From positions 1 through 64,000 of the forward strand of contig JAJQBC010000124.1 in assembly GCA_021203465.1 (NCBI GenBank): a stretch of DNA of 64,000 nt, given 5' to 3'. Positions 123 to 8,261 of this stretch are shown in pieces. The notes under the pieces are model-generated. The model saw only the letters and a program-made list of their open reading frames with translations. It had not been told where the DNA came from and made no database searches. Position 1 is the stretch's first letter, and each line of letters starts with the position of its first letter. The position numbers were made by a program, and so were the translations under genes. The DNA is from Lachnospiraceae bacterium (GTDB lineage Bacteria > Bacillota > Clostridia > Lachnospirales > Lachnospiraceae).

Positions 123-1106
123 ATGGAGCATGGACTGGATGACAAGTCAAAACGGATTTTATCGATTTATACGCGGCTGCGGGAGGGACGCACCATCTAC
201 AAATCGCAGGAGTGCGCGGATTTTGGCGTGAATCCCAGGACGATACAGAGAGATCTTGCAGATATTCAGGGCTTTTTGTAGGATCAGGTCAGCGAGACCG
301 GGGAGCAGCAGGCTGTCAAGTATGACAGAACCTCCGGCGGTTATCGGTTAGAGACCGTCGTTGAGCGGCAGCTTAAGCCGCAGGAACTTCTCGCCGTGTG
401 CAAGATCCTGCTGGAAAGCCGCGCGCTCATGAAGGATGAGCTTTTTCCCATTCTGCACAAGCTTTCCAATGCGTGCAGCGGAGAGGAAGATCAAAAGCTG
501 GTGCGCGAATATATCGGCGATGAGATGTATCATTATATCGAGCTGCGCCACGGGAAAAAGCTGCTGGAGAGGATCTGGGAGCTGGAGCGTGCGCTGAAGG
601 AGCAGCGCTATATTCAGATTCGCTACAGAAAGCTGAAGAATCAGGAAGAAGTCGTCCGCAGGCTGAAGCCGGTGGGCGTGATGTTCTCAGAATTCTATTT
701 TTACCTGACTGCTTTCATTGAAAATATTGACCGTGAGAAGGAGTTTCAGAACCCGGACGATCCCTTCCCGACGATATATCGAATCGACCGTCTGGAGGAG
801 GTAGAAGTGCTCGACGAGCATTTCTCCGTGCCCTATGCGGAGCGCTTCGAGGAGGGGGAATTCCGCAAGCGCGTGCAGTTTATGTACGGCGGCAGGCTGC
901 ATCGGGTGAAGTTCCGCTATTCCGGGCCGGATATCAACGCGGTGCTGGACCGGCTGCCGACGGCGGAGATTCTCTCGGAGCAGGACGGCGTGTACACCGT
1001 GACGGCAGAGGTATTCGGCACGGGGATTGAGATGTGGATGCGGGGGCAAGGGTATATCGAGGAGATCAGCCCGCAGAGGGGAACAAAAGGAGAGGGGACT
1101 GCATAA
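123..1106 (+). pseudogene. HTH/WYL-domain transcriptional regulator interrupted by in-frame TAG at 279-281
   Basis: ATG at 123 behind a GGCGAGG-like RBS; N-terminal HTH-like segment (SKRILSIYTRLREGRTIYKSQECADFGVNPRTIQRDLADIQGFL) then TAG, then the same frame continues into ORF 396-1106 with WYL-type sequence (YIQIRYRKLKN..VRRLKPVGVMFSEFYFYLTAF). 279-123 = 156 nt, divisible by 3. Confidence 0.8.
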
Positions 1107-2762
1107 ATGCTTACTTTTATCCCACCTTATATGGGAGAGGAAATCAAAAGCGGCGCGGAGAAAAAGATGTTCGGCGTTTTGGAGCATCTGGACACGAAGC
1201 GCGCTTTTGTGCTGCATTCTCTTGGCCTGCCAAAGCACCATACCAAGATTTACGGGGAAATTGACTTCGTGGTGGTGTGTGACCGCGGCGTCGCGTGCCT
1301 GGAGATCAAGGGCGGCCGCGTGGATTGCCGCGAGGGAGTCTGGTATTTTACCGACCGCTATGGCGTGGAGCGGGGAAAGACGGAGGGACCCTTTGCGCAG
1401 GTGAGCGGGAATATGTTCAGCCTGCGGACAGTGCTGAAAGAACGCTTTCCGGACAACCCGCACCTGAAAAATGTGCTGATGGCCTGCGGCGTCGTGTTTC
1501 TGGATATTGCATTCACCGCGTCCTCCGAGGAGATCATTCCGGAGATTGTCTATGATAAGCGGACGGAGAATATCACCGCTTATATCAACCAGATCTTTGA
1601 CTACTGGGAGACGCGGCAGCACAGAGCGCCGAGCCGTCTGTCACCGTCGGACATGGAGGAGATCGTCCGTTATCTTCGCGGGGAATTCACGTTTATCCCG
1701 AAGCTTGGCGATCGGCTGGAGAGCGTCGAGCAGCATCTACTGCGGTTGACCGCGGAGCAGGCGCAGCTCATGGAAGCACTGTCGCTGAACGAACGCCTCC
1801 TGATCGAGGGCAATGCGGGAACAGGGAAGACTCTGCTCGCTGCAGATTTCGCCGTGAAACGGGCTAAAACCGGCGACCGGGTTCTCCTGCTCACCTATAA
1901 CAAAAATCTTTCCAACGATATTCATCGGCAGACGCAGGAAATCGCGAATCTGAAGGTGATCAATATCCACGCGCTCTTCGGCGAATCGGTCGAGGTGGAT
2001 ACACAATGTCTGAAGGAAAATCCACAGAATTATTTTTCGGAGATTCTGCCGGAAGCATTTTACGATTATATCAAAAATATGCCGGAGGCGAAGCGCGCGG
2101 CTCTGCAATATGATCTGATCATTATGGACGAGGGACAGGATATTATACGTCCTGTTTATCTGTATTCTCTTGATTATTTGTTGAGAGGCGGATTCGAGAA
2201 AGGCAGGTGGGCGGTCTTCTATGATGGAAAGCAGAATATCTACAATCCGGAGTATGCCGACGGTATGGAGCTTTTGCAGTCCTTCTCCTGCACGAAATTC
2301 CGCCTGTTCGTAAACTGTAGAAATACCGTACAGATTGGCACTTATACATCCGAGGTGAGCGGCATCGCCGCCGGGGATTTCATCCGCGAGGTCGGCGAGG
2401 ACGTCCGAAAGATTGTCTGCGCCGGAGAAGCAGATTTCCGAAAGCAGGTCAAAAAAATCCTCAACATGCTCCGCGCGGAGAATGTGGCGATGACAGATGT
2501 CACATTCCTCTCACCGAAAAGATACGTCAACAGCCGCTTGAGTAAGGCGGCAATCCCGGTGGCGGAGATCGGCGGCGGGGAGGAAGAGAATCAGGAGCTG
2601 CCGCGTTTTGCCACGATACAGGGCTTCAAGGGGCTGGACTCGAAGGTCGTGATTCTGGTGGATGTGGAGGACATCCGTGAGGAACAGTACGCGCAGTTTA
2701 TGTACATTGCGGCGACGCGAGCGAGGACGCTGCTGTATGTGGTGACGATAGACGCGGAATAA
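1107..2762 (+). CDS. NERD nuclease-related domain + UvrD/DUF2075-like superfamily 1 helicase
   Basis: N-terminal NERD-like EIDFVVVCDRGVACLEIKGG; Walker A EGNAGTGKTLLA; Walker B-like LIIMDEGQD; C-terminal MYIAATRARTLLYVV. Confidence 0.85.
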   Translation: MLTFIPPYMGEEIKSGAEKKMFGVLEHLDTKRAFVLHSLGLPKHHTKIYGEIDFVVVCDRGVACLEIKGGRVDCREGVWYFTDRYGVERGKTEGPFAQVSGNMFSLRTVLKERFPDNPHLKNVLMACGVVFLDIAFTASSEEIIPEIVYDKRTENITAYINQIFDYWETRQHRAPSRLSPSDMEEIVRYLRGEFTFIPKLGDRLESVEQHLLRLTAEQAQLMEALSLNERLLIEGNAGTGKTLLAADFAVKRAKTGDRVLLLTYNKNLSNDIHRQTQEIANLKVINIHALFGESVEVDTQCLKENPQNYFSEILPEAFYDYIKNMPEAKRAALQYDLIIMDEGQDIIRPVYLYSLDYLLRGGFEKGRWAVFYDGKQNIYNPEYADGMELLQSFSCTKFRLFVNCRNTVQIGTYTSEVSGIAAGDFIREVGEDVRKIVCAGEADFRKQVKKILNMLRAENVAMTDVTFLSPKRYVNSRLSKAAIPVAEIGGGEEENQELPRFATIQGFKGLDSKVVILVDVEDIREEQYAQFMYIAATRARTLLYVVTIDAE

Positions 2763-2886: not shown

Positions 2887-3306
2887 ATGAAGACAGAGTT
2901 TACAGAGGAAGAATTAGGTCTGGAGTTAAAGGGAAGAGAAGCAGAGGCTAAGGAGCTTCTGGAAGACGAGGATAAGATGGAGCGCTTTTTGGAGCGCCTG
3001 GAGAAGAAGCTGAAGAAAGTGCCCGCGGTGGGAGATAAGTTATCGGATATTCCGGTGCTGATATCTCTCGTGCGCTCTTATGTTAAAAAGGAATACACGG
3101 ACATTCCAATTGGAAGTATCATCGCAATTCTGGGTTCGCTTATTTATTTTGTCTCGCCGATCGACTTAATCCCGGATACCGTACCGGTAGTTGGCTATAT
3201 CGATGACATTGCAGTTATATCGTTTGCTATGAAAATGGTGCAGGATGATGTGGACGAATACAAAGAGTGGCAGAAGAAACACGGGAAGCGCGTTTTTGGG
3301 GATTGA
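2887..3306 (+). CDS. YkvA/DUF1232 family protein
   Basis: Signature IIAILGSLIYFVSPIDLIPDTVPVVGYIDDIAVI; RBS AAAGGAG upstream. Confidence 0.85.
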   Translation: MKTEFTEEELGLELKGREAEAKELLEDEDKMERFLERLEKKLKKVPAVGDKLSDIPVLISLVRSYVKKEYTDIPIGSIIAILGSLIYFVSPIDLIPDTVPVVGYIDDIAVISFAMKMVQDDVDEYKEWQKKHGKRVFGD

Positions 3307-3369
3307 AAAAATATAAGCTTTAAAATTACAGAATGATAAAGGCTTCGTTGAAGCAGGAAGGATAAGTAC

Positions 3370-5529
3370 ATGAACATTACATTAGGACAATTACAGGAAT
3401 TAGAGAACAGCTGCATAGATTTGATGAACTCTACATTTGGCTTGACGGATGATTTAAGCGATATGAAAGACAGCAGTGAAAACATTGCAAAGGCCATAAG
3501 AAAGATCGTGCTTGCGAGTGAACTGGCTGAAAAGCAGGTTATCTGTGTTTCCGGGCTGCAGGGCGCCGGAAAAACGACAATGATGAAGAATTTCTATTGT
3601 ATCGATGATGGAATTTTAGATGTATCTACAGGGCGTGGTGAGAGAATTCCTGTTTTTTTCTGTGAGAAAAAAGACTGCACGGAAGTAAAACTTTACGCAG
3701 TTTGTTTAAGAAAAAAAGAAAGCTCCAAAGAAAACGCCGAAGAAGCTGCCTATGAGAAAATCTGGCTTGAAATCAAAAAAGAAGATTTTGTAAGCGCAGG
3801 AAAAGGTGATAAGATGGGGGACGATACGCATGTAATGTATCTGGAGGTACAAAATCCTTATAAACATTTTGGAAATGAAGCCTCTATGTTTATGTTGCTT
3901 CCCGGATTTGAAAAGGATGATGATTATTGGCAGGAACTGATTGATTTATCTGTGCAGGGCTCAGCCGCTTCTATTTTTGTGTGTAATGATTCGGAGATTT
4001 CATCAAATGATAATGAAGAGCTGCACAAAAAGATTGCGAATAAATTTGGAAATGGTGTGATTTATGCGATAAGCCATTCTGATATGAGTCAGGATGAAAA
4101 TGCGCAGGTGAAAGAAAGCCTGTTGAAATGCATGAATGCAACAAGTAAAGAAAGAGATCGTGTTGTTTGTGTGGGAGAGTATAATGATTCAAAAAAGAAT
4201 GAGAAATGGATTGACGAGCTAAAGAATTCTATTGAAAAATATTGTAATTCGGTGGAAACAGCGATCCGGAACACTGCGAAATATATTGGGGATGTTATCG
4301 ACAGAGATATCTTCCCGGAAATCTCCAACATGCGCAGCTGCATTAATGATGACGAGGGGGATATCCTTGCAATTCATTTGGAACAATCTAAGTTTTTGCA
4401 GGCCTTTGACGGCATCGTTAAGGATAGAAGAGATATGCTTGCGGATCAGTTGGAGGACAGCCTTGCCTGTTCCACCGACAGAAGCATTAAGCGACTGCAA
4501 AATCTATTTACAGATAAAGAAGATGCAAAGAAAAAAGGTGTTTCCGATCCGGGCTGGAAGAAAATTAGAAGAACTATCTTTGGACAAAGTGTGAATGATA
4601 TCCAACTGGCTCAGAAAAGGGTGGTTAAGGCTCTGAAAGACGAAGACGATGTCTACGATTTTCAGAAAGCCTTTGTCAAAGCGGCGGTTATGATAGAAGA
4701 GAGTGTTGAAGCTGACAATGAATGCAAAAGAATCATATCAGGTTCGTGCGACAGTGAAGCTCCGTTGGCCACGTTTGAATCCGAAGATAATCCGGTTCCC
4801 ATCAATCAGGAACAGAAGCAGGAAAGAATGAATCACATTATGCATGATGCCACATGCCTGCTGGCAAAAGAAAATACTGACAGGCAACAACTTCAGTACA
4901 AAAACGTAGCAGGGACGTTAAGAGTGATTGCAGAACTCGGGACGCAGTATTTTGCCAAGGTTACACTCAATAAGGTTGAGGAGGATAATCCATATTTGCT
5001 GAAGACATCCCTTAATGGGGAGCTGGATACGATAAAAGTTTCATATGAAGATATTCAGAGTAAGATAGGAAGTACGGAAAAAGTCCTGTGGGGAGTCCTT
5101 GGAGTAACCGGTGTTGATCTGGTTGATGATGGGGTTCTGAATGCTGTTCCGAAATTGGCTGCGGCGTTGGAAGTCCCTGTTGCAGTCGCTGGCGGTATAA
5201 CTGCGGTAATTATAGGCGTGACGACTACTGGCGCGGTTATACGAGATATCAATCGCTTGCAGAGAACTGAGTATGAATCTGCCGTTAATACAATCAGATC
5301 AATACAGAGCCAGGTAAAAGGTAAGTATTTAGACGCATATGACAAGGCCATGATCAGGATCAGAGATCGTATTGAAGATAACCTTATCGAAATATATGGG
5401 GTCAATAAAAAAATATTCAGAAAGACAAATGCATTGATCGCGTTAGGAAGAATAGAAAATGTTTTGGATGATATTTACAGAGAGGTAAACAACAGTGAGT
5501 ATGGCCTTGGAAACGCTTTTGGAAGATAG
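3370..5529 (+). CDS. Dynamin-like P-loop NTPase with C-terminal hydrophobic segment (protein A)
   Basis: Walker A GLQGAGKTTMMKNF; G3-like MLLPGFE; G4-like ISHSD; long helical middle; hydrophobic stretch VPKLAAALEVPVAVAGGITAVIIGVTTTGAVI near the C-terminus. Confidence 0.6.
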   Translation: MNITLGQLQELENSCIDLMNSTFGLTDDLSDMKDSSENIAKAIRKIVLASELAEKQVICVSGLQGAGKTTMMKNFYCIDDGILDVSTGRGERIPVFFCEKKDCTEVKLYAVCLRKKESSKENAEEAAYEKIWLEIKKEDFVSAGKGDKMGDDTHVMYLEVQNPYKHFGNEASMFMLLPGFEKDDDYWQELIDLSVQGSAASIFVCNDSEISSNDNEELHKKIANKFGNGVIYAISHSDMSQDENAQVKESLLKCMNATSKERDRVVCVGEYNDSKKNEKWIDELKNSIEKYCNSVETAIRNTAKYIGDVIDRDIFPEISNMRSCINDDEGDILAIHLEQSKFLQAFDGIVKDRRDMLADQLEDSLACSTDRSIKRLQNLFTDKEDAKKKGVSDPGWKKIRRTIFGQSVNDIQLAQKRVVKALKDEDDVYDFQKAFVKAAVMIEESVEADNECKRIISGSCDSEAPLATFESEDNPVPINQEQKQERMNHIMHDATCLLAKENTDRQQLQYKNVAGTLRVIAELGTQYFAKVTLNKVEEDNPYLLKTSLNGELDTIKVSYEDIQSKIGSTEKVLWGVLGVTGVDLVDDGVLNAVPKLAAALEVPVAVAGGITAVIIGVTTTGAVIRDINRLQRTEYESAVNTIRSIQSQVKGKYLDAYDKAMIRIRDRIEDNLIEIYGVNKKIFRKTNALIALGRIENVLDDIYREVNNSEYGLGNAFGR

Positions 5530-7513
5530 GAGCCAATGGCAGCAAAACACGATAAAGAGAATTCAGGACAGTTTATTGAACAGGCCTGAAACTTCCCTGA
5601 ATATTAAGGAGGAAAAGCTGGTCGTAGTTTATGGGCCGACGCAGATAGGGAAGACGACGTTGATTCTGTATTTGATGGGAATATCAGACAAACGGCGTAG
5701 TGAAATTTATAATGTTCTCCGGGCTGGAATACCACGTGGCAATTCCTCGACTTCAACTGCAATCATATACCAGCACTCATCAGAAGATTTTTATGAATTG
5801 GGATATAAGAATAAAGACGGAAATGTAGACAGGGAGGTGTACGAAAGCAGGGAGGCTTTCGAAGACCGTTTAAAAGATATCAGGAAAGATGTGGAGGAAG
5901 GAAAAGCATCGACCGATGTTTTACATATCTACATTCCCCATTCTTATTTTGACGAGGGCAGCGAAGAGCATTCCAACATAAGCATTTTGGATTTGCCGGG
6001 TGATAGGAGCAGGAACCGGAAGGAAAGTCAGCATGCCGATGTGCTGATTCGCAAGTATATGTCTTTGGCCTCTGTAAATATCATTGCATGCAGGGCAGAC
6101 TCCATTCAATCTTTGGAAAATCTCCAGATACAAGGGAACAAAGATTGGAAACATATGGGGCATCGGTATATACTCGTTACGACCAGTTCCTACGGTCAAA
6201 GTAATATAAAGAAATTTTTTCAGAAGGACAGGAAGGAAAGAAAAAATTTTCTGGATTTCGTTAAAAACTATTATGCAAATGAGTTGGAAAAAGTTCTGGG
6301 GTCTGACTGTCAGATTGAGAGTTTTCTGCTGGATGTAGGGGATTCTTTAGACAGATTATGTAATGAAGAATTGAAGGACTTTCCAGAAGAGGACAGAAAG
6401 GAAGTCCGGGAGACTACTGCTCAAATAGCTGAGGAACTTCGCAAATCCATACAACAAAGGAGCGGGAACAGCTTAAAGGCAGCCATCGATGATCTGCGTA
6501 ATGGAGCATTAAAGAAATCCGAAGACAGGCTGAATAAAAAGAAACAGGATTTAAAAGATGTCAGGAGAACGATAGAAGAGTACGAGGAAAAGATTAAAAG
6601 TTTGGAGAAGGAGTTAGAGAATTATAATAAAATTAGGGAAGAAAAAGAAGAAAACACTTCTTTGTATGAAGACTACCGGAATTTGAAAAAGAAATCTGAG
6701 AGTCTGGAAAAGAACAAAAAGGTATATCTGTCACAAAAAGAGGAGTTCGTGATGGACACGTTGGATGTTGTGGTTAAAGAAAATTTAAAAAGAAATAATG
6801 TGCTGAAAGATAGAGATAAGAAAGTATCTGCCAAATTTCAAGAGTGTATAAAGGATGTTACCAGATTATTCCTGAATGAATTTAAATCAAATTCTCCAGA
6901 ATTGTCAATGGAAAAATCTTTTAATATAGAAGATGATGAAAAATTGACCGACCAAATTTATGAAGCTGCTCGTGGTATTGGTAAGTCCGATTATACCGAA
7001 GATCCTGTTGAAAAACTGGAAGAGTCCTTATATTCATGCAACCTATCATTTGTTGAACGATTTCGTAACCGAAAAAAATACGATGAATGCATGGAAAAGC
7101 TTTGTAAATATACGAATGAGTATCTCGATAAAATGTGGAAGGAAGTATATTGTGAACTTAAGAAAATGCTGGAAAGGAAGGAATTAACAGAAAAAATTAA
7201 TTCATGTAAATTACTTGAAGATAATATTAAACATAAAGAAAATAAAAGAAATTCGTGCCAAAAGGAAATAGAAGAAAAACAAAAGGAAAAAGAAAGGATT
7301 ATTTCTGAAATAGAAGATATAGAAAAGCAGAAAAAAGTTGATGAAAAAACTCTGAATGACTTTCGAACGATTGCGGAGAAGGAATATTCGAAGCAGGTAA
7401 AAGACATTGAAAATGATATACGAAACCATCAGATATCCGGCGTGGATCTGATGCCTTATATTATCTATCTGGCGTTATTGGAAAAGAATTTTAATCAAAC
7501 CATGTTGAGCTGA
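5495..7513 (+). CDS. Dynamin-like P-loop GTPase with long coiled coil (protein B)
   Basis: Walker A YGPTQIGKTTLILYL; NSSTST switch-like segment; G3 ISILDLPGDRS; charged coiled coil from about aa 340. GTG at 5495 or ATG at 5501; overlaps protein A by about 30 nt. Confidence 0.6.
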   Translation: MSMALETLLEDRSQWQQNTIKRIQDSLLNRPETSLNIKEEKLVVVYGPTQIGKTTLILYLMGISDKRRSEIYNVLRAGIPRGNSSTSTAIIYQHSSEDFYELGYKNKDGNVDREVYESREAFEDRLKDIRKDVEEGKASTDVLHIYIPHSYFDEGSEEHSNISILDLPGDRSRNRKESQHADVLIRKYMSLASVNIIACRADSIQSLENLQIQGNKDWKHMGHRYILVTTSSYGQSNIKKFFQKDRKERKNFLDFVKNYYANELEKVLGSDCQIESFLLDVGDSLDRLCNEELKDFPEEDRKEVRETTAQIAEELRKSIQQRSGNSLKAAIDDLRNGALKKSEDRLNKKKQDLKDVRRTIEEYEEKIKSLEKELENYNKIREEKEENTSLYEDYRNLKKKSESLEKNKKVYLSQKEEFVMDTLDVVVKENLKRNNVLKDRDKKVSAKFQECIKDVTRLFLNEFKSNSPELSMEKSFNIEDDEKLTDQIYEAARGIGKSDYTEDPVEKLEESLYSCNLSFVERFRNRKKYDECMEKLCKYTNEYLDKMWKEVYCELKKMLERKELTEKINSCKLLEDNIKHKENKRNSCQKEIEEKQKEKERIISEIEDIEKQKKVDEKTLNDFRTIAEKEYSKQVKDIENDIRNHQISGVDLMPYIIYLALLEKNFNQTMLS

Positions 7514-7526
7514 GGAGAAATGTGAG

Positions 7527-8261
7527 ATGGAAAGTACACTGAAAGAGGAAGTCCATTTATTATTTACGGACAATATTGTGACTCCGATTGGGGAAAAGAT
7601 AGAAGGCCTGAAAATAGCGGAAAATTTTGGAGAATTGAAAAAGTCCGGAGAAAATATAGAAAAAATTGCAAAACAAGCCCTGACGGCAACTGATTTTAGA
7701 CGAGGAAAAGAAAAGTTTGAAAAAGATTTTAGAGAGCATGACAAAAAAATTGATAGTAACACCCAATCGGTGATTGATGAAATTGGAAAGATAAGTAAGC
7801 GATTAGAACAACTGGATAATCGATTGGAAAAGGAAGTGATTGTGAAAGAGAACGGCCTTCAGGGGCGGATAAACATGATGGTAAAGAATCAGAGTTCCTC
7901 AGAAAATCATATGAAAAAGGAATTTAAAGCTGATCTTGAAGAGCGACAGAACCACATCTTAAATGTTTTGGATAAGAGAGATAATGAGGCAGATAAAAGG
8001 TTTGGCAACATTGAGAGTACCTGCAATGCCATGCTGAAACGGTCAGAATTTGAAGGATGGAAGCTGGAAATTGAATGTCAGAATCAGGAAATCACTAAAA
8101 TGGTGAAATCTTTCTGTGATGACAATTCAGTTGTAGAACATATAGATTCTGCGTCAGTGGAGTTTGGTAAGATGAGAAAGCTGGTAATCGGCCTTATGGC
8201 AGGAAATTGTGTAATGTTCGCGGGTATCATTATCATGTTTGCTATGATGTTTTTGGGATAG
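7527..8261 (+). CDS. Coiled-coil protein with single C-terminal transmembrane helix (protein C)
   Basis: Heptad-like charged sequence then LVIGLMAGNCVMFAGIIIMFAMMFLG at the C-terminus; 13 nt after the protein B stop with a GAGGAGA RBS. Confidence 0.65.
   Translation: MESTLKEEVHLLFTDNIVTPIGEKIEGLKIAENFGELKKSGENIEKIAKQALTATDFRRGKEKFEKDFREHDKKIDSNTQSVIDEIGKISKRLEQLDNRLEKEVIVKENGLQGRINMMVKNQSSSENHMKKEFKADLEERQNHILNVLDKRDNEADKRFGNIESTCNAMLKRSEFEGWKLEIECQNQEITKMVKSFCDDNSVVEHIDSASVEFGKMRKLVIGLMAGNCVMFAGIIIMFAMMFLG

Follow-up and report, generated by a model that had tools for sequence, protein, structure and literature searches.

A patchily distributed gene trio encoding two dynamin-like proteins and a tail-anchored coiled-coil protein, with a probable role in anti-phage defence

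The locus and its three-gene unit

The window analyzed here, a stretch of 64,000 nucleotides from the Lachnospiraceae contig JAJQBC010000124.1, contains four closely packed genes on one strand, which encode a DUF1232 protein and three proteins referred to below as A, B and C (Table 1). The original prediction regarded them as a single system built around a pair of dynamin-like GTPases. ORF analysis confirmed all four reading frames; the predicted P-loops of A and B and the DLPG motif of B are present, and B overlaps A as predicted, by 35 nt. Plausible ribosome-binding sites were found upstream of the DUF1232 gene, A and C. The neighbors anticipated from a defence island were recovered by Pfam as well: WYL, NERD-helicase, SLFN/AlbA_2 and AAA plus PDDEXK, with the PDDEXK_3 match below the family cut-off. 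The NERD-helicase (1107-2762) also matches the reverse-transcriptase-associated PADLOC model RTasNERD-Hel (3e-44), and no reverse transcriptase was noticed among the neighboring genes examined.

Table 1. Genes of the analyzed locus (coordinates refer to the window)
Feature	Coordinates	Strand	Characteristics
WYL-domain protein and NERD-helicase	396-2762	+	island neighbors, identified by Pfam
DUF1232 protein	2887-3306	+	139 aa; Pfam PF06803, E 4e-14; 63 bp upstream of A
Protein A	3370-5529	+	719 aa; dynamin superfamily; P-loop GLQGAGKTT
Protein B	5495-7513	+	672 aa; dynamin superfamily; P-loop GPTQIGKTT, DLPG
Protein C	7527-8261	+	244 aa; coiled coil, one C-terminal TM helix

Against 85,462 species genomes, a profile of B revealed 44 loci, which belong to Clostridia, Gamma-, Beta- and Alphaproteobacteria, a single Acidobacteriota MAG and a MAG labelled as Prevotella; in each of them A lies upstream of B. 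The adjacency of A, B and C is kept in essentially every locus fetched, so that the homologs are co-located across genomes, and the association is more than chance because two main phyla share the same gene order. Measured to the earliest possible start codon of B, the distance between A and B is -131 to +6 nt for 47 of the 49 loci counted, a set that includes near-identical loci and does not represent 49 independent events; in the two outliers A is split into two frames. Of 196 genomes of the order, four contain A and B, always both and side by side, and within a sample of 399 genomes of the phylum they were found in the window's own genome and in 0 of the 398 others (E limit 1e-15). A and B co-evolve, as expected of genes inherited together (correlation of distance matrices r = 0.97, 34 loci, permutation p 0.0002). 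The trio forms a single unit of patchy distribution.

The part of the original prediction that included DUF1232 in this unit did not hold. Among the loci fetched by the time of a regular-expression search, the DUF1232 motif was present near A-B-C in the window copies only, and a weak relative occurs in one genome of the same genus that has no A. We therefore reject the four-gene unit and regard the DUF1232 gene as a local neighbor outside the conserved trio.

None of Pfam, PHROG, NCBIfam and PADLOC contains a model specific for A, B or C; the possibility, raised with the original prediction, that the models of a named system already cover them yielded no specific match. Pfam gave nothing meaningful for A and C of the window, and we found no named three-gene dynamin system in the open-access literature searched. 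In RefSeq, A is listed at four loci (L019, L020, L021, L069) under the names "sugar kinase" or "tektin family protein", apparently a misannotation; with public names such as these, or simply "hypothetical", the family is being overlooked. A phage origin of the trio was considered and rejected, as only one 6.6-kb phage-labelled record and one viral contig were found and PHROGs gave no meaningful match.

Folds and sequence motifs of A, B and C

The AlphaFold model of A (pLDDT 70.6) and the predicted structure of B (pLDDT 79.3) both comprise a G domain followed by long helices; the structure alignments contained 34-38 homologs, with rows from annotated records left out. In Foldseek searches of the PDB, all 50 matches listed for A and the best 30 for B belong to the dynamin superfamily (BDLP: E 3e-11 for A, 5e-11 for B), the top matches being BDLP, SynDLP, the Campylobacter jejuni pair, IniA, OPA1/Mgm1, Mx and LeoA. 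The dynamin-like fold postulated for both proteins is thus supported by prediction. Over their full length, A and B reach only low TM-scores against dynamins (about 0.2-0.27), probably due to the geometry of the stalk, hence the folds support membership in the superfamily rather than a close relationship to any particular member. The stalk of B consists of two long helices (residues 327-398 and 526-643). A is also predicted to carry a helical stalk, together with a strongly hydrophobic, paddle-like segment (residues 580-640, approximately) that has no counterpart in B. Pfam Dynamin_N matches the window B below threshold (3.6e-4) and 35 of 40 B homologs weakly. The viral structure models matched by B are dynamins from giant viruses rather than phage proteins.

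With G4 assigned from sequence and predicted secondary structure, A and B have lost different GTPase motifs: G3 in A, G4 in B. The alignment of A homologs shows a preserved G1 (GxQ[GS]AGKT), whose Gln we take to correspond to the catalytic Gln of dynamin. The Asp of G3 is replaced by Leu (LLPG) in 35/35 homologs, which leaves A with an incomplete G1-G4 set. A G4-like [S/T]-x-x-[E/D] motif is kept after the strand at residues 230-235 of the model, its acid being Glu in 26 and Asp in 9 sequences (ISHSD in the window, SKTE in the proteobacterial consensus). The "degenerate G3/G4" originally ascribed to A therefore applies to G3 and not to G4. In B, G1 (GxTQxGKTT) and DxPG are invariant in 40/40 homologs, as is T86 in switch I (SST(S/A)T), but the set is again incomplete: the G4 acid is absent, also in 40/40, from the position after the strand at residues 225-230.

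Protein C combines a short, conserved N-terminal motif (LLxx[IV]xxP[LIV]) with a coiled coil and a C-terminal TM helix (a tail anchor); the latter two features were noted in the original prediction, and the TM helix is real and conserved among homologs. The sequence as a whole is poorly conserved, the homologs ranging from 210 to 462 aa with a highly variable length of the coiled coil. Nonetheless, a profile of the 90 N-terminal residues of proteobacterial C ranks clostridial C proteins (L033, L029) above all non-C ORFs, although the window C itself does not reach significance with it (E 1.2). A C protein with a C-terminal TM helix was detected downstream automatically in 41/49 loci, and inspection added another five (L023, L043, L055, L062 and L065, two of which are fragments). 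As to the remaining loci, L030 ends within B, the C of L026 is short and lies close to the contig end, and L028 encodes a 175-aa C without a TM helix, so that there may be one real exception. One C protein (L017:11079-12422) is enlarged by tandem repeats of about 14 residues (ALKADTAEVKTNTE).

Relationship to Eleos/LeoABC

The trio could represent a divergent branch of Eleos/LeoABC, in which A and B would correspond to LeoBC and LeoA and C would be an added anchor; we consider this unlikely. Paired dynamins of the same superfamily are encoded in one operon in both cases, and the PADLOC LeoBC model matches 23/40 homologs of B (best 2e-17) and 13/35 of A (6.6e-7), while the LeoA model matches 20/40 of B. 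However, in the ten proteins for which extents were shown, the matches span the G domain or short stretches, and a full-length match to the LeoA or LeoBC model was seen for neither A nor B. In a control search, matches at 1e-10 or better occurred in 121 (LeoBC) and 147 (LeoA) of the order's 196 genomes. Most of them spanned a single domain of ORFs about 300-460 aa long (1e-11 to 1e-15), which are probably ordinary GTPases of the Der/Era type. A true full-length LeoBC scores 8.6e-52 with the LeoBC model, but the A and B profiles fail to find it (E 0.2-1.7). The published Leo layout, with a split LeoC/LeoB plus LeoA, places the TM segment on a P-loop fragment (PMC4159319), whereas C has no P-loop. 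Partial Leo matches at the level of ordinary GTPases thus leave Eleos membership unsupported, and we reject it as a deduction from the PADLOC matches, while a common origin within the superfamily is supported. The resemblance to LeoA/LeoB seen in the original prediction extends to the superfamily and to the pairing of dynamins in an operon; it does not extend to a specific model match. As a practical matter, the PADLOC models PDLC03841 (LeoBC) and PDLC03839 (LeoA) would over-call Eleos if used without a coverage cut-off.

Genomic setting, proposed function and known systems

The defence-island setting noted in the original prediction is supported, and the trio is mobile, as seen from the patchy distribution, the low GC content (37-41% in the trio vs 55% in the rest of the window) and the occurrence on plasmids and in E. 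coli islands. Plasmid copies were found in Klebsiella, Enterobacter, Pseudomonas and Gluconobacter, several of them on large plasmids, and 6/12 plasmid matches were typed as conjugative. The trio is present in 5/5426 complete E. coli genomes, on chromosomes as well as plasmids, close to AbiTii, HamA-type and DEAD helicase genes and restriction enzymes. Azaca-like genes, DNA methylases, GmrSD and WYL regulators lie near other loci; many neighbors there are ordinary genes, and some loci have no visible defence neighbor. The WYL genes recur by L031, L061, L063, L066 and L067 and are likely regulators of the islands; one WYL regulator family co-localizes with phage defence islands (PMC9122601).

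In E. coli (L070, L071, L105-L108) the trio occupies a slot with exchangeable contents behind two small genes (142 and 129 aa): depending on the strain, the slot holds A-B-C, a HEPN/Toprim gene, or a 1210-aa protein with an ABC-three-component cassette. In strain TUM9803 it contains a truncated A and an ABC-three-component cassette, with no B or C annotated. The two small genes were considered as extra subunits in Enterobacteriaceae and rejected, since they are present without A-B-C in other E. coli. Two plasmid loci are rearranged. On Gluconobacter pGOX1 (L021:8959-12378) B has a disrupted frame and is separated from C by an IS5-type transposase. On a Sphingomonas plasmid (L022:6991-10743) A is absent and a short TM-bearing C follows a fusion of a helicase-like region to a remnant of B without the P-loop, hence we rejected this protein as an A-B fusion.

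By guilt by association with these neighbors and islands, we propose that A-B-C is probably a distinct, mobile, heteromeric membrane defence module of the dynamin type. A membrane-located heteromeric dynamin is suggested by Bacillus subtilis DynA (PMC8844932) and by the C. jejuni pair (PMC6104087). The tail anchor would hold C in the inner membrane with its coiled coil reaching into the cytosol, where it might recruit, space or gate an A-B complex. A and B would pair via their G domains, with B supplying the main hydrolytic G3 site and the paddle of A inserting into the membrane, and both proteins may be required for functional nucleotide switching. Assembly could be triggered by phage-induced membrane damage or by a phage component located there. 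Membrane remodelling by the complex would follow, with one of two outcomes: the membrane is sealed and lysis delayed, as reported for DynA, or it is disrupted, which would abort the infection. More tentatively, the trio might even constitute a separate class of immune dynamins, in which A and B share a nucleotide site with complementary motif loss, switching needs the heterodimer, and the tail-anchored coiled coil sets membrane location or spacing in a tether-like manner.

A module for membrane maintenance or vesicle release, carried as general mobile cargo and not for defence, would agree with the loci that have no visible defence neighbor, with the link of LeoABC to vesicle release (PMC4159319) and with the response of DynA to antibiotic membrane stress as well (PMC8844932); we find it improbable in view of the very patchy distribution, the slot shared with defence-type cassettes and the recurrent WYL regulators. 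A device for competition or entry exclusion, acting at the membrane against plasmids or prophages, is still less probable, as the copies on large plasmids and the conjugative matches are offset by copies in chromosomal islands and by the fact that conjugation genes are not consistently associated with the loci read.

The proposed defence module is relevant to the general question why bacterial dynamins are usually paired. Here complementary loss of catalytic motifs, seen across distant phyla, seems to fix the pairing, which makes the need for a heterodimer directly testable by point mutation. Since copies occur in E. coli and on Klebsiella plasmids, phage experiments and structural studies are feasible. 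The trio is in none of the family and defence-model libraries searched, and it probably has an anti-phage role.

Several known systems resemble A-B-C in part. The DO-GTPase/GAP1 conflict systems (Kaur et al. 2020, PMC7159879) likewise have two GTPases, a membrane link and mobile neighborhoods, and Pfam DO-GTPase2 weakly matches 7/35 A homologs (best 1e-4); however, the GAP1 and the variable effectors of those systems are both missing from A-B-C, and A has a dynamin fold, so neither fold nor gene set supports membership. B. subtilis DynA is a bacterial dynamin at the membrane with a reported anti-phage effect, the delay of phage-induced lysis (PMC8844932), but it is a single protein of two fused dynamins without a C-type partner. 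C. jejuni DLP1/DLP2 (5owv/5oxf), both of which are matched by A and B, are two non-identical dynamins from one operon, a heterotypic pair that tethers membranes (PMC6104087); the text consulted reports no third membrane-anchored subunit, and the gene family differs by sequence. Eleos/LeoABC, whose LeoA structure (4aur) is found by Foldseek with both A (E 2e-7) and B (E 1e-5), is also an operon-encoded bacterial dynamin pair of this superfamily, from which A-B-C is distinguished by the complementary loss of G3 and G4 and by its third, tail-anchored coiled-coil protein without a P-loop.
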